From a virus, in IMG/VR virus record IMGVR_UViG_3300023180_005952, positions 1 through 24,402 of that record: a stretch of DNA of 24,402 bases, one strand, 5' to 3'. The position numbers and the translations under genes were made by a program. Positions 3,168-24,307 of this stretch are shown here, in pieces. Position 1 is the first letter of the stretch, and every line of letters begins with the position of its first letter. The notes beneath the pieces are model-generated. The model had not been told where the DNA came from. It saw nothing but the letters and a program-made list of their open reading frames with translations, and did not search any database.

Positions 3168-3211
3168 ATGTTTCTCCTATCATGTAAACAGATTATGCTC
3201 TATTTTCTTAT

Positions 3212-3240
3212 ATTATATATGTAATTTATTTTTTTGTCAA
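3212..3240 (-). promoter_or_regulatory. Sigma70-type promoter for the FkbM gene
   Basis: TTGACA (3240-3235), 17 bases, TATAAT (3217-3212). The TGA stop codon of the upstream phosphomannomutase-like gene (3239-3237) is part of the -35 box itself. The leader to the ATG is about 45 bases and ends with AGGAG. Confidence 0.85.
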
Positions 3241-5277: not shown

Positions 5278-5289
5278 TCATTCTTTTCC

Positions 5290-6063
5290 CTAATTTTTGT
5301 AAGCATATTTAACGATATCATCAACGACTTTTTCGAAGTCATGTAGATGCAAAGCATTGGGTCCATCGCTTGGTGCATTATCCGGATCCTTGTGAACTTC
5401 TAAAAAGAAGTTTGTCACACCCATTGCAGATGCAGCGCGAGCCAACCCAGGAACATACCCGCGATTACCGCCACTGCTAGAGCCCATACCTCCGGGTTTT
5501 TGAACGGAGTGGGTAATATCATAAACAATGGGAACGTTATAATTGTCAAGCATAAACTGAAGACCAGTGAAGTCAGTGACCAAAGTATTATATCCAAAAC
5601 TTGTTCCCCTTTCTGTTAGCCATACTTCTTTTGCACCCTCTGTCTTTCCTATAATGCCTTCGGCATCCCACGGTGCTAGAAATTGACCCTTTTTAATATT
5701 AATTACTTTACCAGTTTCTACTGCCTTCCTAATAAGATCAGTTTGTCTACATAGAAATGCTGGTATTTGCAAAACGTCAACAGCATCATTCCATTCTTTC
5801 ACGATATGATCTATTTGATTAACATCATGAACGTCAGTAAGAGTTTTTACATCTTCCTTGTATTTTATGAATTTAAAATCCTTGAGTGTTGCATCCATGC
5901 CAACACCACGCTTGCCATTGATGCTTGTTCTGTTTGCTTTATCATAACTGGCCTTGAAATAGTATTCAATTCCGTGTTTGTCGCACACACGTTTGCATTC
6001 TCTGGCGATTTCAATACTCTGGACTAGTGTTTCGTGCTGGCATGGTCCTGCAATAATTCTCAT
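5290..6063 (-). CDS. kdsA: 3-deoxy-D-manno-octulosonate 8-phosphate synthase
   Basis: 257 residues, near the family's usual length. All hallmark segments are present: AGPCQHE at the start, YYFKASYDKANRTS, TDVHD, LQIPAFLCRQTDL, INIKKGQFLAP, GTSFGYNTLV, DITHSVQKPGG, SSSGGNR, and FLEVHKDPDNAPSDGPN. KdsA condenses phosphoenolpyruvate with arabinose-5-phosphate to give KDO-8-phosphate for lipopolysaccharide. Cys8 in AGPC, with the later His, Glu and Asp, marks the metal-dependent class (Aquifex-like) rather than the E. coli class, which has Asn there. GAGG in the end of queD lies 5 bases before ATG 6063, so the two genes are tightly coupled. A phage copy could alter host KDO/LPS or make a KDO-like sugar for a phage glycan. 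Confidence 0.93.
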   Translation of the reverse strand: MRIIAGPCQHETLVQSIEIARECKRVCDKHGIEYYFKASYDKANRTSINGKRGVGMDATLKDFKFIKYKEDVKTLTDVHDVNQIDHIVKEWNDAVDVLQIPAFLCRQTDLIRKAVETGKVINIKKGQFLAPWDAEGIIGKTEGAKEVWLTERGTSFGYNTLVTDFTGLQFMLDNYNVPIVYDITHSVQKPGGMGSSSGGNRGYVPGLARAASAMGVTNFFLEVHKDPDNAPSDGPNALHLHDFEKVVDDIVKYAYKN

Positions 6064-6528
6064 TTACGCCTCGTATATCGCAGAGTTGGCACCGTGCTCA
6101 TAGCACTCTACGCTTTTTACTCTTACCGTTGGGTTAAGAGCAGTTCCATCATCCTTTGACTTTTGAATGATCTCTGCCATCTTATAAAATGCCATTTCAG
6201 CAAAACGTTCTGCACCCACTGCCGGAACGACTCTCACGTCTGCTACATGACTCGGAAGACTCTCAAGCAAATCTTTTTCTGGATCATCAGCGGCAATTAC
6301 CGTTGTGTGATCAAATGTGTCTTCCAGCCAATTCTTAAATTCCTTGAGTCCACCAAAGTCCATTACCCAATTGCGTTCATCGAGCGAATCACATTCAAAG
6401 ATCAATTTAAATCCTAGACTGTAACCATGCAATAGTGAACAGTGTGAGTGTGTGCTACGCCACTGTCTGAAACAGCAAGACAGACCCCTGTCGTTGCCAT
6501 AATTTTTAGTTGAATAAAATTTTCCCAT
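6064..6528 (-). CDS. queD: QueD / 6-pyruvoyl-tetrahydropterin synthase-like enzyme
   Basis: 154 residues with the PTPS/QueD fold signature: HSHCSLLHGYSLGFKLIF (about 27-44, Cys30 and His34), MDFGGLKEFKNWLE (56-69), FDHTTVIAADDP (Asp73, His74) and the closing VECYEHGANSAIYEA with the conserved Glu. QueD makes 6-carboxy-tetrahydropterin from dihydroneopterin triphosphate, the first deazaguanine step. The usual CxxxHGH zinc motif reads C-SLL-HGY here, so one His ligand is replaced by Tyr36. A QueC-like PP-loop protein lies at 21,450-22,190, so deazaguanine chemistry is plausible. AGGAG stands about 7 bases before the ATG. It follows a possible 21-residue leader ORF and heads the sugar operon. 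Confidence 0.85.
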   Translation of the reverse strand: MGKFYSTKNYGNDRGLSCCFRQWRSTHSHCSLLHGYSLGFKLIFECDSLDERNWVMDFGGLKEFKNWLEDTFDHTTVIAADDPEKDLLESLPSHVADVRVVPAVGAERFAEMAFYKMAEIIQKSKDDGTALNPTVRVKSVECYEHGANSAIYEA

Positions 6529-6530
6529 TA

Positions 6531-6596
6531 TTATCTCCTATAGTTAATAACGGCGGCAGAATTAGAAGGGTTGACGCCAAGTCCTGTGTTAAACAT
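6531..6596 (-). CDS. Possible 21-residue leader peptide before queD
   Basis: ATG 6596 opens 21 codons (MFNTGLGVNPSNSAAVI then NYRR) ending with TAA 2 bases before the queD ATG. Its last codons contain the queD ribosome site AGGAG. The ATG lies 7 bases after the -10 box of the queD promoter, so it would be read from a leaderless mRNA. There is no Shine-Dalgarno for it. It may be an attenuator, a translational-coupling leader or chance. I do not recognise the peptide. Confidence 0.35.
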   Translation of the reverse strand: MFNTGLGVNPSNSAAVINYRR

Positions 6597-6603
6597 AAAA
6601 CTA

Positions 6604-6632
6604 ATTATACGATCTATTTAGGCAAAGGTCAA
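6604..6632 (-). promoter_or_regulatory. Sigma70-type promoter for the queD-kdsA-glycan unit
   Basis: TTGACC (6632-6627), 17 bases, TATAAT (6609-6604). The -35 box is made of the TTG ACC (Leu-Thr) codons near the end of the upstream gene. The leader to queD is about 70 bases. It would drive queD, kdsA, the glycosyltransferase, the oxygenase and the PMM-like gene. Confidence 0.82.
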
Positions 6633-7226
6633 GTTCTTGGTTACCAAAACTTCAAATGTGACATTAGGATATCGCCATTTTTTTGGTAGAACCCAATCCT
6701 TAGTATTTAGGACCTTAAATTTTGTATCAGGAAAACTTTCAAATACCTTTCCAATCTGGTATTCCCAATACGAATGGTCAATGGGTTTACTATTTTTATC
6801 GGAATAGTTAAGTGTTCCTTTGTATATGTTATTAACCTTTTCATCTATTCCATAAAGATCAAACCCTATAAGAGTTACATCGTTATCAAGATTGGCCGCT
6901 AACAATACGGCATATGGACCACTCCCCCAATGTATTGGATTGTCTATTTTTGCTCTGCTGGTATCGTATGGAAGATCAGGAACCTGATGAATTCTCTTGT
7001 CCTTCTTGATCTTTCTAAAATATCTAAACCAATCGGGCCTTACATAAATTTTTGAATTATCTGCATTGCTGTGTTCTATTGCTTCTTCAACCATTCTTCT
7101 GTCACAGCATACTAAATGATCAACGGCAATATCTCTAATCAAGGCATTGCACCCTACGATTACGTTACTTCTGTCTAGATTGATTTGCTGTCGGCTCTGG
7201 CCGTTGCCAACTACGAGGACAGGCAT
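6618..7226 (-). CDS. Phage-conserved Rossmann-like protein, possible sugar transferase (MptE/sialyltransferase-like)
   Basis: 202 residues. It opens with MPVLVVGNGQS followed by VIVGCNALIRDIAVDHLVCCD, a pattern of GxGPS-type Rossmann folds found in DUF115/MptE-like proteins and some phage sialyltransferase-like enzymes. The middle has WGSGPYAVLLAAN, then DVTLIGFDLYGI, YKGTLNY and HSYWEYQIGKVFESFPDTKF. Similar small proteins occur in marine T4-like phages, but I know no proven function. It starts 4 bases after the tail-fibre-like gene, whose last codons hold AGGTAGG as ribosome site, so it is probably expressed late with it and might modify a virion glycan. Confidence in the gene is high, in the function low. 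Confidence 0.6.
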   Translation of the reverse strand: MPVLVVGNGQSRQQINLDRSNVIVGCNALIRDIAVDHLVCCDRRMVEEAIEHSNADNSKIYVRPDWFRYFRKIKKDKRIHQVPDLPYDTSRAKIDNPIHWGSGPYAVLLAANLDNDVTLIGFDLYGIDEKVNNIYKGTLNYSDKNSKPIDHSYWEYQIGKVFESFPDTKFKVLNTKDWVLPKKWRYPNVTFEVLVTKNLTFA

Positions 7227-7230
7227 TTGC

Positions 7231-8046
7231 CTACCTAATGTTGCCGAATGGTGCCCAAACTCCAGGGTTGCCGGCTTTTACACATACCCATCCAATCTGT
7301 CCATTTACAACTGGATTGGAGTTCCATGTTATGTCGCCCACATTATAAGTTCCACCCTTAGGTGGCTCAGAACCTTTGATGTGTAGTGATCCGTTAAACT
7401 TGATTGATCCACTTACGTGAAGATCAACTTCTGGATCAGGATTGTTTACACCAATGGCCATTTTTCCTGAAACTTTTACGTTGTTCTTGATTTTTACATC
7501 GCCGCCTGCCGTAACTGTTAATCTTGTTTCGTCGTCAGTTTTAATATCAAGATCGTGGCTGGCGAAAGTTCCAATGTATCCTCTTGTGAAGTCGTCTGTT
7601 CCTATACCAACTTCTATTCCATCTTCTGCCACGCTTAGTGCAGAATTTGGTTGATCAGTTCCTATTCCTAATCTATCACTACCTGAATCATAAAACAGAT
7701 ATTGATTAACTGTCATGGATCCATCTACGATCAGACCCTTTAGTCTACCAACTTCTTTTAGATTACTCTTGGTAATGCTTGCACCTAAGCCTTCTTCGTC
7801 AAGTGCTTTTACACCATTAATTTGTAGTTCTTTTCCCTTGGCAATGTCAACATGCTCTGAAATAAAGATTCTATCTGGCTCACCAAACAGTGCAATCTGT
7901 TTTGTATAGTCATTACCTGCCCAAAATAAGCCCTTGCCATGTATTTTGTCCTTAAAGGTAATACTAGCATGAGAAAGAGTTTGCTCATCTTCCGTAAGTG
8001 CTATTTTAAGTGCTTCTAGTGCTTGATTAAGATGTTCTTTGTTCAT
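7231..8046 (-). CDS. Tail-fibre-like virion structural protein
   Basis: 271 residues, Gly/Asp/Asn-rich and beta-repeat-like. It contains two copies of the GIGT motif of phage fibre proteins (DRLGIGTDQPNSALSV and EVGIGTDD) and the related AIGVNNPDPEVDLHVSGSIKFNGS. The C-terminal module, GTYNVGDITWNSNP...GQIGWVCVKAGNPG-WAPFG, is a common end piece of marine phage fibre and baseplate proteins. It is expected to be in the virion, at a fibre or its tip, possibly in receptor binding. ATG 8046 has no Shine-Dalgarno; a late box ends 5 bases upstream, which supports late expression of a structural gene. The sugar-transferase-like gene follows. Confidence 0.72.
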   Translation of the reverse strand: MNKEHLNQALEALKIALTEDEQTLSHASITFKDKIHGKGLFWAGNDYTKQIALFGEPDRIFISEHVDIAKGKELQINGVKALDEEGLGASITKSNLKEVGRLKGLIVDGSMTVNQYLFYDSGSDRLGIGTDQPNSALSVAEDGIEVGIGTDDFTRGYIGTFASHDLDIKTDDETRLTVTAGGDVKIKNNVKVSGKMAIGVNNPDPEVDLHVSGSIKFNGSLHIKGSEPPKGGTYNVGDITWNSNPVVNGQIGWVCVKAGNPGVWAPFGNIR

Positions 8047-13025: not shown

Positions 13026-13033
13026 GTTAAATA
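13026..13033 (+). promoter_or_regulatory. Late-promoter-like box before the first radical SAM gene
   Basis: GTTAAATA, one change from NATAAATA, followed by 8 bases and ATG 13042, which has no Shine-Dalgarno. The same spacing is seen before the PP-loop gene at 21,450. Confidence 0.5.
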
Positions 13034-13041
13034 TGCATATA

Positions 13042-14022
13042 ATGAACGATTTTACTCTTATACCTTTCCAAAATATTGTTCGATTTGGACAGAAGACCAT
13101 GTTGGATCAACCTTTGTTCAATGTTAGTTGGATATTGGGAAGGTTCTGTAATTATAAATGTTCATACTGTTGGCCCTATGCAAATACTGACAAACCGGAT
13201 CATTTGGATCTTGAAGTATACAAGAAAACGATAGATGAAATCAAGAGGCAGTCTAGAGAAAATGGATTTACAGATTTCCATTTTAGTTTCAGTGGTGGCG
13301 AGCCTACTGCCTACAAACACTTTGGAGAACTCATAGAGCATTACTGTAGTGATACAGAAGCACCTTACCAAAGCATACATTTAACCACTAATCTATCTCC
13401 AGCCGGCAAGTGGTGGGACAAATTTATAACCAACACACAAAAATTGCAAAGGAAAAGCATAACGGCAAGTTTCCATGCAGAATTTGCGGATGAAAAACAA
13501 TTCGGCGATAAGTGTTTGCAACTGATGAAGGCCGGAGTGTTTGTTACGGTTAATCAGGTCATGGTTCCTGAAAAGTTTGATGAATACTACGAACGCTGTA
13601 GCAGGCTTGCTGAAAGAGGAATTAATGTTACACTGAAACCCCAAAGCGATCCGACAGCAAGTTTCATAGTCGACGGTTACACTGAAGAACAAATTGAAAA
13701 AATGCAAACTAATTTTCCACAGAATAATCAGGGTGAAAAATTGTTACAAATGTATTTCCAAGATGCCAAGGGCAACGATTACGGAATGGACCAGGCAGAA
13801 AGAATGAATGCTTTTGGATTTAATAAGTTTAAAAATTGGACATGCGCAGCAGGGCATCAAAGTTGCGTTATAAGGGGGGTTGAAGTTAAAAGGGCATATA
13901 GTTGTGCGGAACAGCCTTTAGGCACGCTTACAGACGGTTTTACGCTGTTTAAAGCACCATCTAAATGCATTACTGACACCTGTGTTAGCAGTGCTGACTC
14001 AAAGATACCAAAATACCTATAG
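13042..14022 (+). CDS. Radical SAM protein (CNYKCSYC type) with C-terminal Cys cluster
   Basis: 326 residues. The radical SAM 4Fe-4S motif is CNYKCSYC (Cys36, Cys40, Cys43), followed by FSFSGGEPTA (GGEP at 85-88, SAM binding) and IHLTTNLSP. The C-terminal part has further cysteines, in NWTCAAGHQSC, YSCAEQPLGTL and CITDTCV, suggesting an auxiliary cluster as in SPASM/twitch enzymes. It is a paralogue of the enzyme at 23,414-24,307. Reaction unknown: such enzymes often modify peptides or proteins. I prefer ATG 13042 to the ATG at 13033, because the latter overlaps the late box. The 3' end overlaps the convergent radical SAM gene by 6 bases. Confidence 0.85.
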   Translation: MNDFTLIPFQNIVRFGQKTMLDQPLFNVSWILGRFCNYKCSYCWPYANTDKPDHLDLEVYKKTIDEIKRQSRENGFTDFHFSFSGGEPTAYKHFGELIEHYCSDTEAPYQSIHLTTNLSPAGKWWDKFITNTQKLQRKSITASFHAEFADEKQFGDKCLQLMKAGVFVTVNQVMVPEKFDEYYERCSRLAERGINVTLKPQSDPTASFIVDGYTEEQIEKMQTNFPQNNQGEKLLQMYFQDAKGNDYGMDQAERMNAFGFNKFKNWTCAAGHQSCVIRGVEVKRAYSCAEQPLGTLTDGFTLFKAPSKCITDTCVSSADSKIPKYL

Positions 14023-15267
14023 ATTCTTAAATATTGGAAAAGACTTTCTAAAATCTAATCCTCTCGTTTTATCAAGTGCTTCGCAGTAGTCTACGAACTG
14101 TGGCAAAAGATCTGTTCGATCAGCGTCCGTCATATGTTTTATTGTAACATCCTTAATTTCTCTAAAGGATTTTTGAAACTTCTCATCCAAATCATTTCCA
14201 TAGTTTTCTAAATCTTCCACTATCTTATCCTTTATGTCTTTTGGTAACACCTGTATGGAAAGGTGATTAGGATATACTAGAGGCATCATGTAGAACAAAT
14301 AATCTTTGGTTGGATCATTATAATGAATTTTCTTATATTTAGATTTTAATTTCCAGTCAATGATATCCTTTAGGTAAGGAACATTGAGTGCATTCAATGT
14401 AAGATTAATTGTGCAATAGATATTATCGTGTGTGCTATTCTCTATTAGATCTAATTTGGAAATCATTTCGTTCCACTTAATTGGATATCGAATGTATTCG
14501 AGTTGTTCACCGATTCCATCTATGCTTAATAGAAGTTTTACGGATCTAAATTTGCTCCATAGTTCCATCACTTCCTCGGTTAGATAGGATGCGTTGGTAT
14601 TGTAACTTAACATAATATTCTTGTTAATGCCCCTTTCTATTAGAGATTGTAAGAATGGTATGTGTGCCTTTGCTAGTAAAGGTTCACCGCCTGCAAAATT
14701 AATCCTTTCTAGGTCATCAGTAAATTCCATTATGCCTTCGATGTTTTCAAACTCCTTTGACCATTTGAAACTTTCAGACTTGTATTCGTTTATTCTAGAA
14801 GTTAGATGTTCCTTATTACCTTCTTCATTAACTTCCTTTAGCATTTTCTTTTCTTCAGCAATCCACGAAGTGCTAAATTGGCTATTACACATAACGCATT
14901 TAAGATTGCAGGTATTGTTAAAACGAAGATCCAAAAATTTAACCTTTGCATCTATGGATCCATCTTCCTTGAGTTCATTGTATAGGTAATCATAATGACC
15001 ATACCTATCATTCATCTGTTGCCTATAACTCTTTATTCCAAGATCCTCATCCTTCCAACACATGCTGCACACTTCAGGTCGGAGTCCTCTTTCAATATCC
15101 AATCTTGTTTTCTTGTGCTTGGGACTGTTGAGCATGCTCGTAAGATTCCTGTCACCTATTTTAACAGGCTGATCCTTAAAGTCCAAACTATTACAGCATA
15201 GATTAACCGACCCATCCGTGGTAATTTGGCTATGCATGTATTGTAGAATGCACCGTTTCTGTATCAT
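14017..15267 (-). CDS. Twitch-domain radical SAM protein (N-terminal auxiliary domain)
   Basis: 416 residues. The N-terminal twitch-like module has Cys6, CC (24-25) after TTDGSVNL, then CSMCWKDEDLG (Cys67, Cys70). The radical SAM core follows with NNTCNLKCVMC (Cys120, 124, 127) and NFAGGEPLLAK (GGEP 193-196), then YNTNASYL and LSIDG. This order (auxiliary cluster before the SAM cluster) is that of the twitch-domain radical SAM family found in phages. Substrate unknown. ATG 15267 has AAGG 10 bases upstream; the frame also has a TTG one codon earlier. It stands alone on the minus strand, convergent with the gene at 13,042 and divergent from 15,296. I see no promoter for it. Confidence 0.87.
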   Translation of the reverse strand: MIQKRCILQYMHSQITTDGSVNLCCNSLDFKDQPVKIGDRNLTSMLNSPKHKKTRLDIERGLRPEVCSMCWKDEDLGIKSYRQQMNDRYGHYDYLYNELKEDGSIDAKVKFLDLRFNNTCNLKCVMCNSQFSTSWIAEEKKMLKEVNEEGNKEHLTSRINEYKSESFKWSKEFENIEGIMEFTDDLERINFAGGEPLLAKAHIPFLQSLIERGINKNIMLSYNTNASYLTEEVMELWSKFRSVKLLLSIDGIGEQLEYIRYPIKWNEMISKLDLIENSTHDNIYCTINLTLNALNVPYLKDIIDWKLKSKYKKIHYNDPTKDYLFYMMPLVYPNHLSIQVLPKDIKDKIVEDLENYGNDLDEKFQKSFREIKDVTIKHMTDADRTDLLPQFVDYCEALDKTRGLDFRKSFPIFKNL

Positions 15268-15278
15268 CAATAGGAATC

Positions 15279-15286
15279 CTTAAATA
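15279..15286 (+). promoter_or_regulatory. Late-promoter-like box before the 15,296 block
   Basis: CTTAAATA, one change from NATAAATA, followed by 9 bases and ATG 15296, again with no Shine-Dalgarno. It would start the long plus-strand block to 20,002. Confidence 0.48.
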
Positions 15287-15295
15287 ATTACATAT

Positions 15296-16279
15296 ATGTA
15301 TAAGATTACTGACATTCGCAGTATTCATTTTGAAATAACCAGCAAGTGCCAGGCACGCTGTCCTATGTGTCCTAGAAGGATAAACGGTGGACCCATGAAT
15401 CCTGGTGTTGTTCTGCACGAAGTCGATCTTGGAACATTCGTTAATTGGTTTCCAAGAGATTTCGTGAAACAGTTAAAGCATTTCAATATGTGTGGTAACC
15501 TGGGCGATCCTCTCGTGGCAAAGGATACCATCGAAATATATAGATACCTAAGAGAAACTAATCCTGAGATGACCTTACAGATGCATACTAACGGAAGCGG
15601 TAGGAACAAGGAATGGTGGGAAGAACTTGCCTCTCTTAAGGTAAGGATAGTATTTGGAATAGATGGATTAGAGGATACGCATGCCCTGTATAGAATAAAC
15701 ACTGACTGGAATAAAGTGATCGAAAACGCAAAGACATTTATTGCCGCAGGCGGTGATGCAAGATGGGACATGCTGATATTCCAACACAATGAACACCAGG
15801 TTGAAGCATGCGAAAAACTATCAAGAGAACTTGGCTTTAGTCTATTCATGAAAAAACACACAACGAGATTCCGTGACGGTAAACTTGATGTTCTTGATGA
15901 CAATGGCAGACCCGTTAACATTTTATATCCAACGGAATACAGCAAGTCAGTAATTGAAAAGGTGGAAAGCGCCAAGAACGAAATTAAACCTGTTATTACC
16001 TGCAAGGCCGTAAAGGACAGCCAGATGTATGTTGGAGCAAACGGAACGGTAACTCCCTGCTGCTGGCTTGACCAGGAATGGTATCCGGCACACGCACCAA
16101 GCAGAATAGACTACATGGACAAGATAGGCATGTGGCCAAATCTAAATGTAAACAGCCTTGAGGACATATTCAATAGTGGATACTTTGATAGGATAAGCGG
16201 TTGTTGGAATTCAACCGGACTCAAGGAATGTTCCAAGCAGTGCGGAAGTTTTGATAAACTAAACAAGCAGTTTGTATAA
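15296..16279 (+). CDS. Radical SAM/SPASM-type protein
   Basis: 327 residues. Radical SAM motif CQARCPMC (Cys18, 22, 25), then NMCGNLGDPLVAK in the SAM-binding position and MHTNGSG. The C-terminal SPASM-like region has VGANGTVTPCCWLDQEW, then GCWNSTGLKECSKQC. SPASM enzymes usually act on ribosomal peptides or protein side chains. The GGEP motif is replaced by GNLGDP, as in several SPASM relatives. First gene of a block that continues with a methyltransferase (TAATG overlap), the DUF2061 protein and the OM barrel. Function inferred from family only. Confidence 0.85.
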   Translation: MYKITDIRSIHFEITSKCQARCPMCPRRINGGPMNPGVVLHEVDLGTFVNWFPRDFVKQLKHFNMCGNLGDPLVAKDTIEIYRYLRETNPEMTLQMHTNGSGRNKEWWEELASLKVRIVFGIDGLEDTHALYRINTDWNKVIENAKTFIAAGGDARWDMLIFQHNEHQVEACEKLSRELGFSLFMKKHTTRFRDGKLDVLDDNGRPVNILYPTEYSKSVIEKVESAKNEIKPVITCKAVKDSQMYVGANGTVTPCCWLDQEWYPAHAPSRIDYMDKIGMWPNLNVNSLEDIFNSGYFDRISGCWNSTGLKECSKQCGSFDKLNKQFV

Positions 16280-16887
16280 TGAAAATAGACATTGAAGATA
16301 TAAAATTTTGGATGGATGCAATTCGCAACAGCGAGGATTCCAAGCGAACACTTGAAAGTTTCTGGGGAGGACAGTTGCAGAGCAAGACTTGGTTAATAGA
16401 TCATCTTGAAAAAGTTTCAAGCAGCATTACCAATGCCAATATCGTAATACACGGTGGATGGAATGGAGTATTGGCCAGCATGCTGTTTAATAGCAATCTT
16501 GGAATTAGGCACATAACTAGCGTGGACATAGATCCTGGCGTTAGAGAAACGGCACTTACCATGAACAAGCGATATGAAATGGAAGGAAGATTTTCGGCAG
16601 TCACGGCAGACATGACCGATTATGATTATGATGCGGACATCGTAATTAATACGAGTTGCGAACACATCACACAGGTGCAGTATGATCAGTGGTTGGAAAA
16701 TGTGCCAGATCGTGCTACAATAGTTTTACAAAGTAATAATTACATTATAGACGAACATATTAACTGTTCAGATTCACTCGAGGATTTTATCCAAAAAAGC
16801 AAGTTGTCAAAGATAAGATACCAGGGTGTCTTGGAACTGCCAAAGTATGATCGTTATCTTTTAATAGGAGACAAAAGTGGACAGTAA
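16279..16887 (+). CDS. Class I SAM-dependent methyltransferase-like protein
   Basis: 202 residues. The Rossmann SAM site reads NIVIHGGWNGVLASML, followed by the acidic strand ITSVDIDPGVRETAL; then TADMTDYDYDADIVINTSCEHI, with the post-II segment where the acceptor would bind. A GGWNG loop stands in place of the commoner GxGxG. The substrate is not visible from sequence. It begins on a TAATG overlap with the SPASM enzyme and overlaps the DUF2061 gene by 11 bases, so it may act on that enzyme's product. Confidence 0.7.
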   Translation: MKIDIEDIKFWMDAIRNSEDSKRTLESFWGGQLQSKTWLIDHLEKVSSSITNANIVIHGGWNGVLASMLFNSNLGIRHITSVDIDPGVRETALTMNKRYEMEGRFSAVTADMTDYDYDADIVINTSCEHITQVQYDQWLENVPDRATIVLQSNNYIIDEHINCSDSLEDFIQKSKLSKIRYQGVLELPKYDRYLLIGDKSGQ

Positions 16888-17284
16888 CACAAGGACTGTA
16901 GTAAAAACTTTATCATACAGGACTGCCGTTGCGGTAAGCATTTTCCTTGCAGCATTGGCAATGAATTATTCAGCAGGATTTGGATTGACATTTGTGGTAT
17001 TATCATACACTGTTGGATTTGCATCATTTTGGATACAGGAAAAACTGTGGAACATGGTAAGTTGGCAAAGAATCGAAAACAACGACACAAGAATTAGATC
17101 CATAGCAAAAACGGTAACTTGGAGATTGTGGTCAATGTTTGTTCTATTCGTGCTTGGCATGATTCTTGGTTTGAGTTCAGCACACGCACTTGAATGGACA
17201 ATTGTTACAAATATACTATTCATCGTTGTTCATTATACACACGAGAGAATATGGAACTTAATTACATGGGGAAAACTTTTATGA
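16877..17284 (+). CDS. Tandem DUF2061 inner-membrane protein
   Basis: 135 residues made of two copies of the DUF2061 unit. Copy 1 runs RTVVKTLSYRTAV to WIQEKLWNMVSW (about 6-58); copy 2 runs RSIAKTVTWRLWS to YTHERIWNLITW (about 73-133). Each has two hydrophobic helices, so four membrane segments are expected, in the inner membrane. The role of DUF2061 is unknown. The start is a GTG at 16877 with AGGAG 6 bases before it. The stop overlaps the next ATG as ATGA, coupling it to the outer-membrane barrel. Confidence 0.85.
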   Translation: MDSNTRTVVKTLSYRTAVAVSIFLAALAMNYSAGFGLTFVVLSYTVGFASFWIQEKLWNMVSWQRIENNDTRIRSIAKTVTWRLWSMFVLFVLGMILGLSSAHALEWTIVTNILFIVVHYTHERIWNLITWGKLL

Positions 17285-17844
17285 AAAAATTAATGCTGTC
17301 ATTGGCAGTAGCATTATCAATCACGACTTCGGCAAGTGCTGATAGTTTTACGCTCGGAACGGGTTATGGCAAGGAAAAGATCACTGACACACTAAGCGTT
17401 GATCTATTCCAGGTGCAGGGTCTGTATAGATTTGATAGCGGATTAACACTGGGCGGAATGATGATGAAAGGATTTCCTGACGTCAACGGAGTTGCAAACG
17501 AGGATCGTTATGAAGCAATTCTTGGTTACACAACGAGAGTAAATGACTTTTCACCGTATGCATTTGTCAGTAAGGGTATTAGAGATTATCTTGATTCACC
17601 AAAGGCATCGGTTGATTATTATACGGTAAAGGTGGGAACAAAATATAATCTCACTGATAAGATTTATACGGATGTAAATTACAGATTTAGGGATACCGAC
17701 GATATTGCCTGGCAGACAAACACATACACTGCTGGCATCGGCTATAACATAACACCAAAATTAAGCGTGGGCATCAACAGAGGTTGGCAGCGTGGTGATT
17801 ATGATTCCGAAATTACATCAATCAATTTCATTACGAGATTCTAA
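17281..17844 (+). CDS. Outer-membrane beta-barrel protein with signal peptide
   Basis: 187 residues. A clear Sec signal MKKLMLSLAVALSITTSASA ends at an ASA-D cleavage site (after residue 20). The mature part alternates polar and hydrophobic residues with Tyr/Gly-rich strands (YTTRVNDFSPYAFVSKG, VDYYTVKVGTKYNL, TYTAGIGYNITPKLSVGIN). It ends in NFITRF, a terminal Phe like the sorting signal of outer-membrane proteins. The size suits an 8-stranded barrel. ATG 17281 is chosen over upstream in-frame starts because of the signal peptide and the ATGA overlap. As a phage gene it may alter adsorption or exclude other phages. I do not recognise its closest family. Confidence 0.82.
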   Translation: MKKLMLSLAVALSITTSASADSFTLGTGYGKEKITDTLSVDLFQVQGLYRFDSGLTLGGMMMKGFPDVNGVANEDRYEAILGYTTRVNDFSPYAFVSKGIRDYLDSPKASVDYYTVKVGTKYNLTDKIYTDVNYRFRDTDDIAWQTNTYTAGIGYNITPKLSVGINRGWQRGDYDSEITSINFITRF

Positions 17845-18965
17845 TGCAGATATATCGAGAGGGAAATTATTTAGATTATTCGAACAGGGTCGAACACTAC
17901 AAGAAGGCACTGAAAGATAATACCGTAGTAATCGAATCTCTCGATCACGTAGAACACATAGCATTATACATTGCCTGGCAGGAAGTGGGAGGACGCATAC
18001 TCGTTAGGGCGCCGATGCTCCCTGTCAAGCAAAAGGAAGAACTTGATTTGCGTCTTGCGGAACAGACAGCAACGGATTGTGTGTTCCTGCATACCAGCGG
18101 AACCACAGGAAGTCCTAAACTTGTTTCGTTTGATAAACAAGAATTTGATAGAATTATAAAAAAATCCGAACAGCATCTAGACTGGAGCAATGATACAAGT
18201 TGGTTAAATTTTATTCCAGCATTTACTAGTGGGTTTTGGCATATAGTATTACCAGCAATAGTAAAACACGATTGCAAGATTGTGTTGTCAAGCAAACAGA
18301 CCCTGAAGGATGATTTTGCCACCGATGTTAATTCAACAATATTCGTTCCAGGCCTAATTGATCAGATGCGTGCAGGTAATTTAAAATTACCATTACACAA
18401 GTTTCACATGATAGCGTCCGGTGCGAGCCAACTGTTATCAAGGCACGCTGAATATATCTTTGACAATGGTTGCAGAGTTTTCAATCACATATACGGAACA
18501 ACTGAGATTGGTAGCCCTATGCTTGGACACAGAACCTATGGCATAGACGGAACAAATTGTTGGCTGGAAATTGATGAGCGTTGTAGAATAGCAGATAATG
18601 AATTGGTGTATAATGACATACACACTGCTGATCTATTTGAAGTCAAGGGCAACCTAATTAGATTCACGGGAAGGTCAAACGACATAGTAAAGATTAATGG
18701 TTACCAATGTAGTTTATTATCCATAGAAAATCACCTCGAGGAAATGGGTCTTGGCGACTGCCTAGCAATACCAAAGAATAAGGCAGGAAGTGATTACATA
18801 GAACTGATGCACACCGAAGGAACACCCGACAGAAAACAAATCAAGGAAATGCTAACACCATATCTTCCACCCTGCAACATTCCATTAAAGTATATCAAGA
18901 CCGAAAGCATTCCAAGAAATGCTCTAAACAAGAAGGTAAGAAATGCTGTTCAGGCAGATCTATAA
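17844..18965 (+). CDS. Adenylate-forming (AMP-binding, ANL) ligase, short form
   Basis: 373 residues with the ANL motifs in order: TSGTTGSPK (84-92, P-loop), NHIYGTTEIGSP (YGTTE 217-221), TADLFEVKGN (Asp263), FTGRSNDIVKINGYQ (Arg277, Lys283) and PRNALNKKVRN (Lys363, the catalytic lysine position). It should adenylate a carboxylic acid, then pass it to CoA, a carrier or an amine. Family members are commonly about 500 residues; here the part before the P-loop is roughly 80 residues shorter, so the acid site may be small. No carrier domain is attached. Starts on a TAATG overlap with the OM barrel and overlaps the GNAT-like gene by 23 bases. Acid and acceptor unknown. Such a ligase is rare in phages. 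Confidence 0.9.
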   Translation: MQIYREGNYLDYSNRVEHYKKALKDNTVVIESLDHVEHIALYIAWQEVGGRILVRAPMLPVKQKEELDLRLAEQTATDCVFLHTSGTTGSPKLVSFDKQEFDRIIKKSEQHLDWSNDTSWLNFIPAFTSGFWHIVLPAIVKHDCKIVLSSKQTLKDDFATDVNSTIFVPGLIDQMRAGNLKLPLHKFHMIASGASQLLSRHAEYIFDNGCRVFNHIYGTTEIGSPMLGHRTYGIDGTNCWLEIDERCRIADNELVYNDIHTADLFEVKGNLIRFTGRSNDIVKINGYQCSLLSIENHLEEMGLGDCLAIPKNKAGSDYIELMHTEGTPDRKQIKEMLTPYLPPCNIPLKYIKTESIPRNALNKKVRNAVQADL

Positions 18966-19518
18966 GGATGATCCACTATTACCCGCATTCATGGAAGAGT
19001 GTGGCAACAGAGGATTCCATAACAACACATCAATAGAAAAATTAAAGTTTGATTACTTTGATCATGTTTATTTCTTTGCAGGAATAGAAGATGATGCAAT
19101 AAAGGTATTCAGCGGAGTTCACGAGTTTTATGTTGAAGGACAGACCTATTGGCGCTGTGGATTTAGAGGAGCAACGATAGATGCTGATCAGAAGATGAGC
19201 CGCAATCTAAGAATAAACTCTCTTAACTTTGGCATAAACTATTATCTACAGATGCAATACATAGAAAGCCTGCATGGTCCATCTAACTTTGTCCATACTT
19301 CAAACGCACCAGAAAGTATTGACGGTGCTGGTAGGAGCCATGCCGTTGATAGATTAATGAAGCGTGGTGTTAAAGGTGTTACGCTGCTTGAAGAAAATTT
19401 TGAATATCTTTATACCAAACAGAATGTATGGCTATTGGACAAGGATGTATGGAAACAGGATTTCGATAAGTATCATAAGGATAATCATATAATAAATGTT
19501 CCATCAATTAAAATTTAA
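18943..19518 (+). CDS. GNAT-like acyltransferase candidate
   Basis: 191 residues. A pattern of FAGIEDDAIKVFSGVHEFYVEGQTYWRCGFRGATID followed by a helix with SRNLRINSLNFGINYYLQ is reminiscent of the GNAT fold (strand, strand, helix), and the C-terminal GVTLLEENFEYLYTKQNVWLL of phage relatives. No textbook acyl-CoA loop (Q/RxxGxG/A) is visible, so the call is weak. ATG 18943 has AAGG 6 bases upstream and overlaps the ligase end by 23 bases; such coupling would suit an enzyme using the ligase product. Confidence 0.45.
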   Translation: MLFRQIYKDDPLLPAFMEECGNRGFHNNTSIEKLKFDYFDHVYFFAGIEDDAIKVFSGVHEFYVEGQTYWRCGFRGATIDADQKMSRNLRINSLNFGINYYLQMQYIESLHGPSNFVHTSNAPESIDGAGRSHAVDRLMKRGVKGVTLLEENFEYLYTKQNVWLLDKDVWKQDFDKYHKDNHIINVPSIKI

Positions 19519-20002
19519 AGAAGAATTAATTAGAGACGCTGACAAAATAATCTCTCTTTATAACTCATACAAAAAAGATTCAACACCGTGGATGGAACCC
19601 GAACACTACAACAAGGGTTGGAACTACATACCTTTCAAAATGTTTGATCAAACAATAATTGATTGTGGCCTGGATTATCTCACAAACAATTGCACGGTAA
19701 TTACATTTTCAATAATGGAGCCTGGGACACAGATATATCCTCACAGTGGATTTAAAGAATATTCAGAAAAAATAATTAGATATCATTTTTGTATATCTGA
19801 TGCGGTAGATAGTGGTTTCAAAACCAATAATGAAGAAATAATATACAAAAAGTTTGATGGCTTTGGATTTGACGATCACGAAATACACAGTGCCTATAAT
19901 AACGACAGCAATGAACGTATAGTTTTATTATTTGATGTTCCTAGAATAGGCAGTCCTGTGGATGTAAAAATTCCTAAAGATTTAGAATCTATTTTAAATT
20001 AA
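19496..20002 (+). CDS. Asp/Asn beta-hydroxylase-like 2OG oxygenase
   Basis: 168 residues. EPGTQIYPHSGFKEYSEKI (His83), then RYHFCI (Arg95, His97), GFGFDDHEIHSAYNNDSNERIVLLFDVPR with His131 and Arg141, gives the layout of the aspartyl/asparaginyl beta-hydroxylase family (cupin-type Fe(II)/2-oxoglutarate enzymes). Relatives hydroxylate Asp/Asn in peptides or act in natural-product routes. It overlaps the GNAT-like gene by 23 bases; an AAGGA lies 13 bases upstream, a weak ribosome site. Its 3' end overlaps the convergent radical SAM gene by 9 bases. It closes the 15,296-20,002 block. Confidence 0.78.
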   Translation: MFHQLKFKEELIRDADKIISLYNSYKKDSTPWMEPEHYNKGWNYIPFKMFDQTIIDCGLDYLTNNCTVITFSIMEPGTQIYPHSGFKEYSEKIIRYHFCISDAVDSGFKTNNEEIIYKKFDGFGFDDHEIHSAYNNDSNERIVLLFDVPRIGSPVDVKIPKDLESILN

Positions 20003-21406
20003 ATCAGCAAGTTCCGGAAATGTTTCCGCAAAGTTTGTTTGCCTTATCAATTCCATCTTTGTAATATAGTTCTTGAAGTTAGGCAGTAGATTTGTCTTAT
20101 CCTCGCTGTTCATGAAATCCAACACGCCTTCATATCTTCTCCAGCCATAGGGGTTAAGTTTCCAGAATGCATCATCCTGCGTGTAGTTGTCCCAGAGCCA
20201 TTGCTTCAGTTCCGCAAAACGCTGTTCGACATCTTGCTTGTGTTCCTTGGGTAGCAATCTCATCTCGAGGAAGGTTGGCATGTATACGAGATGAATGTTT
20301 ACTATTCCTCCGCCTATTACTAATCCTTCTTTGTTTGTTCTTGTGTTTATCTTTTTATATTTTTTGTTAATCTTCCACTTTACGAATTCTGGTAGGTGCT
20401 TGATGTTTAGTATGCTTAGGCACGTGGCAATCGTAACATCTATGTTATCAGGGGTATCGTCAAGTAGATCAAGATTGCGTTCAACTGTTTCCCAATCACT
20501 CGGATATCTAATGAAATGATTTCTTTGATCTGTTCCATCAAGGCTGAATCCAACCTGCACTCTCTTGAAGTGTTTCCATAGGTCAATTATTTCCTCATCA
20601 ATCAACAGTCCGTTGGTATTGTATCTTAGCACTATGTTCTTTTCATGGCCCTGCCTAATAATCTCTTCTATGAACTGTTTGTGTTCTCTGATCATTAGAG
20701 GCTCGCCGCCAGCAAAGTATACCTGCTTGATGTTTGGTATCTGCTTATACATTTCTTCCCAGAACTGGGGATTCTCGTGCCACTTGTTATTAAAGTTCTT
20801 TCTTTCCCAATGCATCTGTCCATGAATAACCTTGTCATCGGTAAGTTCCTTTAACTTATAGTAGTCGCCCACCCACTTGCTTGAATCGTGTGGACTGCAC
20901 ATGATGCATTTTAGATTGCAGGTATGTCCGAGCCTTAGATCAAGATAGTGTATCCTTTCAGGAGCAGTTCCGTCCTCGAGTGTTTCACGTATTAGTTCCT
21001 GTATGTCAACGTTTTCGTCCTGCCAGTAATTGTGTTCCCAAATCCTCTTGCTGCTTATGCCCTTGGCTTCCTCAGTAAAACACTTCTGGCAACTCTCTGG
21101 TATCTTGCCAGCCATCATGTTTTTTCTAACGTCCTTCATGTATTGGCTGTTCCATGCTTCCATTGGAGTTTGGTTTCCAAAGTTTGCATGCTGACCATCT
21201 GAATCCTTGATTATTCCTATGGTCGGGTTTATTCCAGCACCACTAGCATTTGCTCCACAGCAAAGTCGCATATCTCCGTTTGGCCTTGTAGCCATATGTA
21301 TCCAAGGCAGAACGCAAAAAGTTGGACTGTTTGATTTGTCCTCTATGTCCTTTTGCCAATCTGCGAGTTGCTTGTTATCGTGATTCTTCCAAAAATGTTC
21401 TGTCAT
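19994..21406 (-). CDS. Twitch-domain radical SAM protein
   Basis: 470 residues, the longest of the three twitch-type enzymes. Twitch module: FCVLPWIHMATRPNGDMRLCC (Cys31, 49, 50) and CQKCFTEEAKGISS (Cys106, 109). Radical SAM core: HTCNLKCIMC (Cys163, 167, 170), YFAGGEPLM (GGEP 233-236), YNTNG and FSLDG. The C-terminal part includes the IYKKINTRTNKEG-like basic region and NLLPNFKNYI. As for its paralogues, the substrate is unknown. It lies alone on the minus strand between plus-strand blocks. No Shine-Dalgarno precedes ATG 21406, and I see no -10/-35 or late box. Its end overlaps the hydroxylase gene by 9 bases, so transcription beyond it would be antisense to the ligase block. Confidence 0.88.
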   Translation of the reverse strand: MTEHFWKNHDNKQLADWQKDIEDKSNSPTFCVLPWIHMATRPNGDMRLCCGANASGAGINPTIGIIKDSDGQHANFGNQTPMEAWNSQYMKDVRKNMMAGKIPESCQKCFTEEAKGISSKRIWEHNYWQDENVDIQELIRETLEDGTAPERIHYLDLRLGHTCNLKCIMCSPHDSSKWVGDYYKLKELTDDKVIHGQMHWERKNFNNKWHENPQFWEEMYKQIPNIKQVYFAGGEPLMIREHKQFIEEIIRQGHEKNIVLRYNTNGLLIDEEIIDLWKHFKRVQVGFSLDGTDQRNHFIRYPSDWETVERNLDLLDDTPDNIDVTIATCLSILNIKHLPEFVKWKINKKYKKINTRTNKEGLVIGGGIVNIHLVYMPTFLEMRLLPKEHKQDVEQRFAELKQWLWDNYTQDDAFWKLNPYGWRRYEGVLDFMNSEDKTNLLPNFKNYITKMELIRQTNFAETFPELADLI

Positions 21407-21433
21407 ATTAATTTTTGCGCCAAGTTACCCATC

Positions 21434-21441
21434 AATAAATA
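21434..21441 (+). promoter_or_regulatory. Late-type promoter box before the PP-loop gene
   Basis: AATAAATA on the plus strand, 8 bases before ATG 21450, with no Shine-Dalgarno. It has the same sequence as the box before the tail-fibre-like gene. Confidence 0.62.
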
Positions 21442-21449
21442 CTACTATT

Positions 21450-22190
21450 ATGCACAGCAATATTTATAATACCCCTAACCAAGACATGTCAGGTGTGGCA
21501 GTGCCGTTTTCCAATGAGTGGAAATCCGTTGCCATAATGGTTAGTGGAGGAGCCGATAGTGCATTATTGTCTTACATAATTTGCGATCACATACGCAGTA
21601 ATGAACTGGCCTGCGGTGTTCAATTAATAAGTGCAATACGCTGTTGGAAAACAAGACCATGGCAGAGATACAACAGCATAGAAGTTTATGGATACCTGAA
21701 GAATAAGTTTCCAGAAATACATATTGATAGGAATGAAACATACATTGCACCTGCATTTGAACACGGGCAGGACAAGAAATTATATACAGATGAATGGGGT
21801 AACCTTGCTCCTGGTGATAGCGTGCATCTTACGTCCTATGCAGAATATGTGTGTAGTAAGAAAAAGGTTCCAGCAGTATACAACGCTGTGACTAAGAATC
21901 CACCAAAAGATGCTGTTCCAGAAGGACTTGCACACAGATACAATCCAAGGGATGGAAACATAACCTTTAGAGATAGTGTAGTCGTAATACAGCCTTTCAA
22001 GCATTTGGATAAGAAACAGTTATATAAAATTTACAGACAGAATGAAATAATGGATCTCTTTAACATCACAAGAAGTTGCGAAGGAGAATTCAAGGATCTG
22101 GATCACACAAATTATGAACCACACCAAGAAGTTCCCACATGCGGAGAATGCTTTTGGTGTAGAGAAAGAAACTGGGCAATTAATGAATAG
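21450..22190 (+). CDS. PP-loop ATPase, QueC-like (ExsB family)
   Basis: 246 residues. The PP-loop is VSGGADSALLS (SGGxDS, ATP pyrophosphatase). The C-terminal end has SCEGEF, then CGECFWCRERNWAI, i.e. the C...CxxCxxC zinc knuckle and Arg of QueC, the enzyme that makes 7-cyano-7-deazaguanine (preQ0) from carboxydeazaguanine. The sequence between the PP-loop and knuckle is diverged from bacterial QueC, so the substrate may differ. A QueD homologue is encoded at 6,064-6,528, but I see no clear QueE. First gene of the block running to 24,307; it overlaps the next gene by 8 bases. Confidence 0.75.
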   Translation: MHSNIYNTPNQDMSGVAVPFSNEWKSVAIMVSGGADSALLSYIICDHIRSNELACGVQLISAIRCWKTRPWQRYNSIEVYGYLKNKFPEIHIDRNETYIAPAFEHGQDKKLYTDEWGNLAPGDSVHLTSYAEYVCSKKKVPAVYNAVTKNPPKDAVPEGLAHRYNPRDGNITFRDSVVVIQPFKHLDKKQLYKIYRQNEIMDLFNITRSCEGEFKDLDHTNYEPHQEVPTCGECFWCRERNWAINE

Positions 22191-23421
22191 CAAGACGTTC
22201 TGCATATACCCATTTACTGGTATGGTAACGAGAGAGGATGGTGCACTCAAACCATGCTGTCGTGCGGAACCAATTGGTTGGATACAGAACGAAAGTCTTG
22301 AACAGGCATGGAATAATGAAAACATGCAGGAACTAAGGCGCAAGGTTCTCAATGGAGAGCGTCCCGTTGAATGCACGAGTTGTTGGATGCTGGAATCACA
22401 GGGCGTGGAAAGCCTAAGGCAGCGTGGGCTGAAAACACAGGAACTGAGAAATGAAACCAAGGAACACAATACCATAATGCCCTATGAGTTTCCCGTGTTG
22501 GAAGTTAAACTAAACAATCTTTGCAATCTAAAATGTAGAATGTGCAATCCACTTGACAGCACGCAGTGGAAGGATTGGAATGATGTAAGCGATTACTACA
22601 AGAAGGAAAACAACTATCTATACGACACCGTCAAGAAACTAAATCTTGAAAAGGGTAGATACATAGGACTGTTTGATGATAATCCTAATTGGTGGGAAAG
22701 TTTTAAAAAGATTATACCACACCTAAGAATAGTTGAGTTTGGTGGTGGTGAACCCCTAATGGATCCACAGCACTATGAGATACTGGAAATGCTCAGCGAG
22801 CATGGTAACAACATTGAATTAAGATATGCTACCAACGGAACCACTCTTGGCATCAAGGGAGATAGGAACATACAGCAGTATTGGCCTAAGTTTAAGAGCG
22901 TTGTGGTTAACGTGAGCATTGATGGAATACACAATGTCTACGAACACATAAGAACTAACGGAAAGTTTGATGACGTAAGGAATAACATTCAGGAGATTAA
23001 GGCAATACCAAACGTAACAAGGATAGTTGGTAAGTTTACGGCACAAGCAGGAAACATACTACACATGGCCGAAACTGCTGAATACTTTATCGATACTATG
23101 AAAATTCCTTTCTTTAGCCATAGAGTTTCCTATCCCAATGTTCTAAGCGTGCAGGTATTGCCTAGGGAAATTAAACAGATTGCACAGCAGAGAATAGAAA
23201 ATTTTATAGATAGATTTAGCACACTGAAGAATCAAGAACTGTATGGTTATAATCTAAAAGAAATAGTGATACCCAATCTAAGAGATACAATTACGTTCAT
23301 GAATGCAAAGGATCACAGCCATGCATTTAAGGACTTTCTTGAATTTAATTATAGATTGGACAGCAGAAGAAATGGTAATAGCATATTAGATGTCAACCCG
23401 GAGTTTGAAGATCATGCATAA
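22183..23421 (+). CDS. Twitch-domain radical SAM protein
   Basis: 412 residues from ATG 22183. Twitch module: FCIYPFTGMVTREDGALKPCC (Cys7, 25, 26) and CTSCWMLESQGVES (Cys64, 67). Radical SAM core: NNLCNLKCRMC (Cys114, 118, 121), EFGGGEPLMDP, YATNGT, VSIDG. The frame is open to an ATG at 22,114, but 22183 matches the family, which starts just before the first Cys. It overlaps the PP-loop gene and the following radical SAM gene by 8 bases each. Unlike its two paralogues it is on the plus strand and in an operon. Substrate unknown. Confidence 0.88.
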   Translation: MNSKTFCIYPFTGMVTREDGALKPCCRAEPIGWIQNESLEQAWNNENMQELRRKVLNGERPVECTSCWMLESQGVESLRQRGLKTQELRNETKEHNTIMPYEFPVLEVKLNNLCNLKCRMCNPLDSTQWKDWNDVSDYYKKENNYLYDTVKKLNLEKGRYIGLFDDNPNWWESFKKIIPHLRIVEFGGGEPLMDPQHYEILEMLSEHGNNIELRYATNGTTLGIKGDRNIQQYWPKFKSVVVNVSIDGIHNVYEHIRTNGKFDDVRNNIQEIKAIPNVTRIVGKFTAQAGNILHMAETAEYFIDTMKIPFFSHRVSYPNVLSVQVLPREIKQIAQQRIENFIDRFSTLKNQELYGYNLKEIVIPNLRDTITFMNAKDHSHAFKDFLEFNYRLDSRRNGNSILDVNPEFEDHA

Positions 23422-24307
23422 GATTACCAGCAGATGGGGACACCAAAACAGCCTAAGCGTTATGTGGAATCTTGGAAAGAGATGCAACTATGATTGCTCC
23501 TATTGTCCGGCAAGCATACACGATAACCATAGTCCACACACGGACATAGAGATACTAAAGAATACGGTTGACAAGATATGTGAAACTGATAGGTCCGTTA
23601 GATTTACATTTACCGGAGGAGAGCCAACGGTGCATCCAAGGTTTGAGGAACTGTTACAATATCTTAGAGCAAGAGATGTTTCCTGGGTTAGCCTAACAAC
23701 AAATGGAACGAGAACGGCCAAATGGTATTTGGATAATGAACAGTATTGGAATCATATACTGTTTAGCCTGCACTATGAATCGGATTATCAGCGAGTGGTT
23801 GATACGATACTTGAATATAAGAAACAAGGGCAAAAAATGTTTTTCGTAAACGTAATGGCACATCACGAATACATGGATGCCGTTAGAACCACTGTTGATC
23901 TATTCGATGCACACGAAGTAAAATATGCAGTAAGAAGAATACGCTGGGGAGACATTGATCACGATATCTTTGACGACAACAAATATTCAGAGCAAGATCT
24001 TGAATGGATATTGTCCAAGGATGCCACTGCTGACCCTAACTGCTTGATAGATGATACAGAATTAATGCACGCCAACGATGTAATTAAACAGCACCTTAAT
24101 CAGTTCAAGGGATGGAAGTGCAGCATAGGACTTGAAAGCCTAATGATTAATTGGGATGGTGATGTGCATCGTGCAACCTGTAGAGTGGGCGGAAGCATGG
24201 GTAATATCTATGACGGAACGTTTTCACATCCCGAGTCAACAATTATCTGTGATAGAAACTATTGCACCTGTGCAGCAGATATCTTTATAACGAAAGTAAA
24301 GACCTAA
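23414..24307 (+). CDS. Radical SAM protein (CNYDCSYC type)
   Basis: 297 residues. CNYDCSYC (Cys24, 28, 31), FTFTGGEPTVHP (GGEP 68-71) and SLTTNGT. C-terminal cysteines occur in GWKCSIG, RATCRVGGSMGN and CDRNYCTCAADIF, likely an auxiliary cluster. It is a paralogue of the 13,042-14,022 enzyme in core and C-terminal layout. Start at ATG 23414 is supported by GGAG 10 bases upstream and an 8-base overlap with the twitch enzyme; an ATG at 23,390 is also in frame. The 3' end overlaps a possible minus-strand frame. Reaction unknown. Confidence 0.87.
   Translation: MHKITSRWGHQNSLSVMWNLGKRCNYDCSYCPASIHDNHSPHTDIEILKNTVDKICETDRSVRFTFTGGEPTVHPRFEELLQYLRARDVSWVSLTTNGTRTAKWYLDNEQYWNHILFSLHYESDYQRVVDTILEYKKQGQKMFFVNVMAHHEYMDAVRTTVDLFDAHEVKYAVRRIRWGDIDHDIFDDNKYSEQDLEWILSKDATADPNCLIDDTELMHANDVIKQHLNQFKGWKCSIGLESLMINWDGDVHRATCRVGGSMGNIYDGTFSHPESTIICDRNYCTCAADIFITKVKT

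Follow-up and report, generated by a model that had tools for sequence, protein, structure and literature searches.

The window analyzed here, i.e., the whole 24,402-base virus record IMGVR_UViG_3300023180_005952 of IMG/VR, contains an island of 13 tightly packed genes that fills positions 13,033 to 24,307 and in which six genes encode radical SAM proteins. An earlier note made from the letters of the sequence alone had drawn attention to this island, and its observation is upheld overall, with corrections to the coordinates, to one gene call, and to the gene inventory. The right end at 24,307 stands as the note had given it, while the left end moves from 13,042 to 13,033, where the first open reading frame begins. 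The otherwise accurate inventory had missed a DUF2061 gene and an outer-membrane beta-barrel gene, and what it had called a GNAT-like acyltransferase stays an unconfirmed candidate, with no Pfam match for the window protein even at E = 1. In the following list, core, sub-module, and accessory refer to recurrence among relatives as described below:

13033..14022, plus strand: rS1, radical SAM protein (PF04055, 55 bits); core gene
14017..15270, minus strand: twA, N-terminal twitch/SPASM plus radical SAM protein (NF033640; PF13186 and PF04055)
15296..16279, plus strand: rS2, radical SAM protein with C-terminal SPASM (PF04055, 44 bits; PF13186); core gene
16279..16887, plus strand: MT, Rossmann-type methyltransferase-like protein (weak PF13649, E = 0.008); core gene
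16877..17284, plus strand: DUF2061 membrane protein (PF09834, 34 bits); accessory
17266..17844, plus strand: outer-membrane beta-barrel protein (PF13505, 29.6 bits; cut-off 28.7); accessory
17844..18965, plus strand: LIG, short adenylate-forming (ANL) ligase (PF00501, 38.5 bits; cut-off 29.9); accessory
18943..19518, plus strand: GNAT-like candidate, fold unconfirmed (homology to phage family 18); accessory
19496..20002, plus strand: AspH-like Fe(II)/2-oxoglutarate oxygenase (PF05118, 48.3 bits; cut-off 22.6); accessory
19994..21406, minus strand: twB, N-terminal twitch/SPASM plus radical SAM protein (NF033640); core gene
21450..22190, plus strand: PP, QueC-like PP-loop ATPase (PHROG QueC-like, E = 5e-7)
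22114..23421, plus strand: twC, N-terminal twitch/SPASM plus radical SAM protein (PF13186, 34 bits; PF04055, 49 bits); sub-module gene
23390..24307, plus strand: rS3, radical SAM protein with a C-terminal cysteine cluster (PF04055, 57 bits); sub-module gene with twC and PP

All six radical SAM proteins carry the CxxxCxxC motif and match PF04055 with 37-58 bits (gathering score 29.5). As the note had read from the letters, five of them contain GGEP (the sixth, rS2, has NLGDP instead), and in twA, twB, and twC a PF13186 domain stands ahead of PF04055. For twA and twB, which were the two twitch proteins covered by the NCBIfam run, this arrangement is matched by NF033640 (N_Twi_rSAM) with 353.7 and 406.4 bits, respectively, far above the cut-off of 170 bits, while twC was judged by its Pfam domain order. 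The most conserved core gene is rS1, in which four C-terminal cysteines (271, 291, 312, and 317) are invariant in the alignment and form a probable auxiliary cluster. None of the other radical SAM equivalogs of NCBIfam was matched above its cut-off, and the heme b synthase AhbD (TIGR04545, cut-off 500 bits) was rejected with 19.8 bits for rS2 and 27.9 bits for twB. In the related 199,810-base sequence G001, positions 72150-74738 (locus L010) encode an 862-amino-acid protein with two radical SAM domains, i.e., a fused twitch-type pair.

The richness of the island in radical SAM proteins is not due to chance, because proteins with CxxxCxxC are concentrated in the island of G001 (8 of 41 within it and 1 of 171 outside; Fisher p = 8e-6), and the contrast between island and remainder is similar in two further relatives, G296 and G297. 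The window is surpassed in this respect: up to 13 such proteins per ca. 21 kb occur in other loci (L083, L055, L040, L045, L065, and others). The genes are under purifying selection, with dN/dS of ca. 0.1 for rS1. In others, pN is 0.09-0.25 at full or near saturation of the synonymous sites; between the window and locus L003, LIG, twB, and rS3 show pN of 0.09-0.16 at saturated synonymous sites.

Among the remaining genes, the ligase, the Asp/Asn hydroxylase-like oxygenase, the methyltransferase, and the PP-loop gene named by the note were all recovered by profile searches, albeit with weak Pfam support for the methyltransferase. The profile of MT found no match among solved structures, and its INTSCEH and QSNNY motifs are conserved. 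The nearest solved relatives of LIG are amino-acid adenylation domains. The GNAT-like window protein is homologous to phage family 18 (hhalign, 98.7%), whose members match FeeM/GNAT weakly (E = 0.008-0.16). The open reading frame of the barrel protein opens at 17194, inside the DUF2061 gene, though a signal-peptide-like N terminus makes ca. 17266 the likelier start by our reading; a predicted outer-membrane barrel encoded within a phage island suggests a role at the envelope.

The PP-loop protein is QueC-like, yet it is not QueC. Its Pfam score of 19.3 bits lies slightly below the cut-off of 22, and although the SGGxDS PP-loop motif is present in all 18 sequences of the family, none of the 18 contains the canonical QueC motifs C(x)8CxxCxxC, YxQxHxxE, VPxRN, or YPDC (QueC and QatC motif definitions from PMC13329287). 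Instead, the family shows C(x)18-29CxxCxxC, with C(x)20CxxCxxC in the window copy. Long cysteine spacing, HP, and ExG are shared with QatC of the PF06508 superfamily, but the exact C(x)19CGxCxxRR of QatC is found in 0 of 18 sequences and the identified neighbors are radical SAM, methyltransferase, and glycosyltransferase genes rather than qatA, qatB, or qatD. From the described members of the QueC superfamily (QueC, QatC, and Cap9) it differs by motifs of its own, W[KQ][TS][RK]PW and SCEG, and this family (A2) is a virus-specific branch (WKTRPW, SCEG) outside the subfamilies described in the literature that we consulted. The PP profile found no match among solved structures, whereas Foldseek with the AlphaFold model (pLDDT 87) retrieved PP-loop enzymes, led by QueC (2pg3) when ranked by TM-score and by the sulfur transferases NcsA and TtuA when ranked by E-value. 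The predicted reaction of PP is most likely the adenylation of a carboxylate in the course of amidation, or otherwise sulfur insertion.

The core operon in viruses and Bdellovibrionota

Recurrence was counted from two anchors. Among 26 wide-flank loci anchored on twB (a gene with 158 viral matches), rS2 was present in 26, MT, twC, and rS3 in 25 each, rS1 in 23, and PP in 22, while the ligase, GNAT-like, DUF2061, and barrel genes occurred in one and the window-type AspH gene and twA in none. Since anchoring on twB selects loci in a way that overstates twC, rS3, and PP, the count was repeated from rS1. In the 21 wide viral loci obtained in this way, MT was present in 21, rS2 and a twB-family gene in 20 each, and a GT-A glycosyltransferase family in 16; twC, rS3, and PP were found in only 8-9 of them, and we therefore reserve the term core for rS1-MT-rS2-twB. 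In 20 of the 21 loci all four are encoded by the same strand in a stretch of no more than five genes, most commonly in the order given and usually with the GT-A enzyme upstream.

In its relatives the genes of the island cluster, and the scattering into single genes that the earlier note had named as fatal to a pathway reading is not seen. However, the set of ligase, GNAT-like, AspH-like, and PP-loop genes that the note had expected to recur does not do so. No ligase, GNAT-like, or DUF2061 gene is present in any of the 21 loci anchored on rS1. Among those anchored on twB, these three are confined to the same phage from other samples and to G001, and twA to the window phage's own copies. Consequently, twC-PP-rS3 is a sub-module and the ligase cassette is peculiar to the close kin of the window. 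AspH-like oxygenases of other subfamilies were seen in 24 of the 26 twB-anchored loci. Two further metagenome contigs (L001 and L002) carry island genes at 100% protein identity. A whole-window near-identity search of the phage collection, a tblastn search of rS1 and PP in 50,697 phage records, and a PHROG scan of ten neighboring families gave no match.

When the rS1 profile was run against one genome for each GTDB species, 20 bacterial loci were revealed, of which 18 are labelled as Bdellovibrio/Bacteriovorax-type bacteria or Oligoflexia (one of them, L121, a fragment) and the other two as Rickettsiales (L114) and "bacterium" (L105). Of 291 sampled Bdellovibrionota genomes, 17 contain rS1. 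Of the 18 loci with usable flanks, 17 have twB and 16 have rS2. The bacterial loci are chromosomal in look, and the GT-A family is found in about ten and MT, whose family (A5) can be aligned between phages and Bdellovibrionota, in eight. Pfam searches beside these bacterial cores found glycosyltransferase 2, GDP-mannose dehydratase/epimerase, AT3-SGNH acyltransferase, and AsnB; locus L118, with a GDP-mannose dehydratase-like epimerase, AsnB, GT2, and an AT3-SGNH acyltransferase, is a typical polysaccharide locus. A QueC-family PP-loop protein above the Pfam cut-off is encoded at L103.

In a maximum-likelihood tree all 51 phage rS1 proteins fall into one clade (100/99) that is separate from bacterial rS1, which argues for an old transfer between phages and bacteria, in either direction, followed by descent within phages. 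L114, from a metagenome-assembled genome labelled Rickettsiales MED657, has ca. nine radical SAM genes in a row, the last of which is an rS1 relative; either the label or the binning of this contig may be in error. A protein family (A6) that resembles fold-type-I pyridoxal phosphate enzymes and has an invariant S-x-S-K (SLSKG-type lysine) is shared by some core loci of phages and Bdellovibrionota (L091, L093, L102, and L103), with only weak matches among solved structures, one of them to an aminotransferase.

A proposed glycan-modification pathway and its rivals

The enzyme that accompanies the core (family 5) is a small GT-A-fold glycosyltransferase as judged from its structural model, its activity being predicted. 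The AlphaFold model (pLDDT 91) was assigned a GT-A fold by Foldseek, with WrtF, RmlT, ppGalNAc-T, SunS, and TarS as the best PDB matches (E down to 4e-5, at TM-scores of only 0.3-0.5 and high root-mean-square deviation). Among the PDB matches listed, there are only sugar-handling enzymes, nearly all of them GT-A glycosyltransferases, and a fused family member matches Glycos_transf_2. In bacteria, the share of regions with a glycosyltransferase is 15 of 19 for core loci and 1 of 19 for controls taken from such genomes (p = 7e-6), and the single match in a control region is a family-5 pair.

Because the core is associated with glycosyltransferases in phage and bacterial loci alike, we tentatively prefer to read the island as a phage glycan-modification pathway. 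That the recurrent unit is rS1, MT, rS2, and twB, mostly with a GT-A enzyme, favors this reading and weakens the ligase-centered and protein-decorating ones that the earlier note had put forward. The radical SAM enzymes and MT would remodel an activated or lipid-linked sugar by epimerization at C-H, dehydration, decarboxylation, or C-methylation, and the glycosyltransferases would then attach the modified sugar to an envelope glycan of the infected cell or to a virion glycan. A changed envelope glycan could alter the cell surface or shut out rival phages. In the window, the extra cassette (DUF2061, barrel, ligase, GNAT-like, and AspH-like genes) and twC-PP-rS3 might add an acyl or amide decoration, with the ligase activating a carboxylic acid that the GNAT-like protein would transfer, the QueC-like enzyme amidating or adenylating a carboxylate, and the oxygenase hydroxylating.

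Several points weigh against a glycan pathway. What has been observed is an association, while substrate, reactions, and destination are read from gene context. The GT-A family is missing from 5 of the 21 rS1-anchored viral loci, and 4 of the 19 bacterial loci have no glycosyltransferase in reach. The bacterial contrast of 15 versus 1 was obtained with a GT2 hidden Markov model trained on six core-locus proteins and becomes 11 versus 0 without them. Moreover, several viral loci are near-copies of each other (e.g., L141, L142, and L144), which makes the number of independent cases smaller than the counts suggest. The nearest PDB sequence matches of the radical SAM proteins are weak and generic, and peptides and proteins are substrates of SPASM/twitch radical SAM enzymes at least as often as sugars. 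Finally, a neighborhood of tail-fiber genes fits protein modification equally well.

These last considerations, together with the chemistry of QatC and Cap9, make a protein-modification island the main rival, though we regard it as unlikely. Here, the radical SAM enzymes, oxygenases, and PP would modify a virion protein (of tail fiber or baseplate) or a host protein, and the glycosyltransferases would glycosylate the same protein. The island has fiber-like genes on its flanks in G001, G296, and G297 and at a distance of 5 kb in the window, the AspH-like oxygenases of most twB-anchored loci would fit, and the features that PP shares with QatC recall that QatC and Cap9, both relatives of QueC, attach a deazaguanine to protein N termini (PMC13329287). 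However, no single family of target proteins was seen to travel with the core, the Bdellovibrionota core sits among polysaccharide genes without phage fibers, and PP is missing from 13 of the 21 rS1-anchored loci.

It is improbable that the island makes a free small molecule or cofactor for infection or competition, such as a diffusible nucleoside analogue, a siderophore-like compound, or a redox cofactor. The mixture of ligase, methyltransferase, oxygenase, and radical SAM genes is typical of natural-product clusters, and the adenylation-domain relatives of LIG would suit such a role, yet genes for a carrier protein, a synthase, condensation, or export are absent from the window. Furthermore, the ligase is missing from nearly all relatives, and the link to glycosyltransferases is strong.

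The co-occurrence of a QueD-like gene and the QueC-like PP in one window could hint at the synthesis of a 7-deazaguanine (preQ0-type) for the DNA or tRNA of the phage, in which a radical SAM enzyme would be QueE-like, but we consider this very improbable. Besides the lack of all canonical QueC motifs in PP, ten core-bearing contigs (possibly fragments) contain QueC above the cut-off in no case and PTPS in two. Auxiliary-cluster domains or additional C-terminal cysteines are present in each of the six radical SAM proteins, and QueE models fall far under the cut-off on the two proteins where they are listed. No TGT-type (DpdA) gene was noticed, though no search was aimed at DpdA. Least probable of all is a cluster for a ribosomally synthesized and post-translationally modified peptide with a hidden or distant precursor: several twitch/SPASM proteins are maturase-like, with weak similarity to peptide maturases, but the widest gap inside the island measures 43 bp and the one ahead of it 91 bp, leaving no room for the precursor gene that the note had likewise failed to see, glycosyltransferases are linked to the core, no RRE/PqqD domain is reported in island proteins at E <= 0.1, and no maturase equivalog scores above its cut-off.

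Phage lineage and relation to known systems

To the left of the island, the window holds sugar-type genes and a fiber-like gene:

2115..8046, minus strand: left flank with FkbM methyltransferase, PMM-like, GT8-like, KDO8P/DAHP synthase, PTPS/QueD-like, 202-amino-acid, and fiber-like proteins
6064-6528, within the left flank: PTPS/QueD-like gene (PF01242)

The 202-amino-acid protein may resemble GT42 or Maf. In the window and in five other loci (L129, L132, L136, L138, and L140), the core lies beside thyX, with fiber-like, QueD-like, KDO8P-synthase, GT8, and PMM genes beyond, and the order from PMM to the fiber gene is kept in these five at 50-77% identity. G001, G296, and G297 are syntenic with each other; their island is flanked on both sides by fiber-like structural genes and adjoins UDP-sugar dehydrogenase, glycosyltransferase-like, and SGNH-like genes, the latter two assigned by reading the sequence.

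Six core-bearing contigs have a capsid gene, and in every case it encodes the same capsid (81-100% identity), which is 67-70% identical to those of PA5oct, MIJ3, Paride, and Phosso. By this sequence comparison, the six contigs belong to one T4-like, Rak2/PA5oct-related lineage of large marine phages; the window itself holds no capsid gene, and its lineage is inferred from these relatives. A pelagimyophage (HTVC008M-like) identity was rejected, with the G001 capsid only 37% identical to that of HTVC008M and no core in the HTVC008M annotation. With two tRNAs in G001 and none in G296, tRNA content gives no clue to the host, and Rfam and tRNA scans of the window found no match.

Phage islands of glycan genes near tail fibers are a known kind. 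The host recognition cluster of pelagimyophages and cyanomyophages is likewise a large variable island near tail fibers of T4-like marine phages, with lipopolysaccharide and glycosyltransferase genes, and in pelagimyophages it includes radical SAM cassettes (PMC7029224). These phages are, however, HTVC008M-like, unlike the Rak2/PA5oct-type phages studied here, and the description of that cluster includes neither a conserved core nor a bacterial counterpart or a mechanism. Radical SAM genes are also enriched in Tasman Sea viromes (PMC7150976), and ahbD calls with doubtful names have been made in marine viral data (PMC9301287). The radical SAM core, its operon, and the Bdellovibrionota counterpart appear to be undescribed, and no phage pathway of such content was found, in agreement with the note, in a literature search without most subscription papers. 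The NCBIfam family NF033640 has no assigned reaction, and what distinguishes its members here is a fixed operon that also includes MT and two further radical SAM proteins.

Radical SAM enzymes that act on sugars include DesII and BtrN. The sole solved match of the twB profile is another sugar-acting enzyme, the cytosylglucuronate decarboxylase BlsE (7vob), though it is weak (E = 0.003) and covers the radical SAM core only. Radical SAM chemistry on sugars is the role that we propose, while we do not claim membership in that group.

Radical SAM genes in marine viromes have been reported repeatedly without a function or under doubtful names, and the conserved operon together with its glycosyltransferase and bacterial counterpart allows many such auxiliary genes to be treated as a testable pathway instead of a list. 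Because no isolate phage carries the core in the rS1 search of 50,697 records, the Bdellovibrionota homologues offer an experimental route. More doubtful than the glycan reading itself is our wider proposal that a radical SAM-methyltransferase-GT-A pathway is common to a lineage of marine phages and predatory Bdellovibrionota and performs new sugar chemistry that remakes the host surface or glycosylates virions. If true, this would be the first phage pathway built on several cooperating radical SAM enzymes, and Bdellovibrionota might then be the hosts or the source of the genes. Should the product be a surface glycan modified by radical chemistry, this would have implications for phage exclusion and for the recognition between predator and prey.

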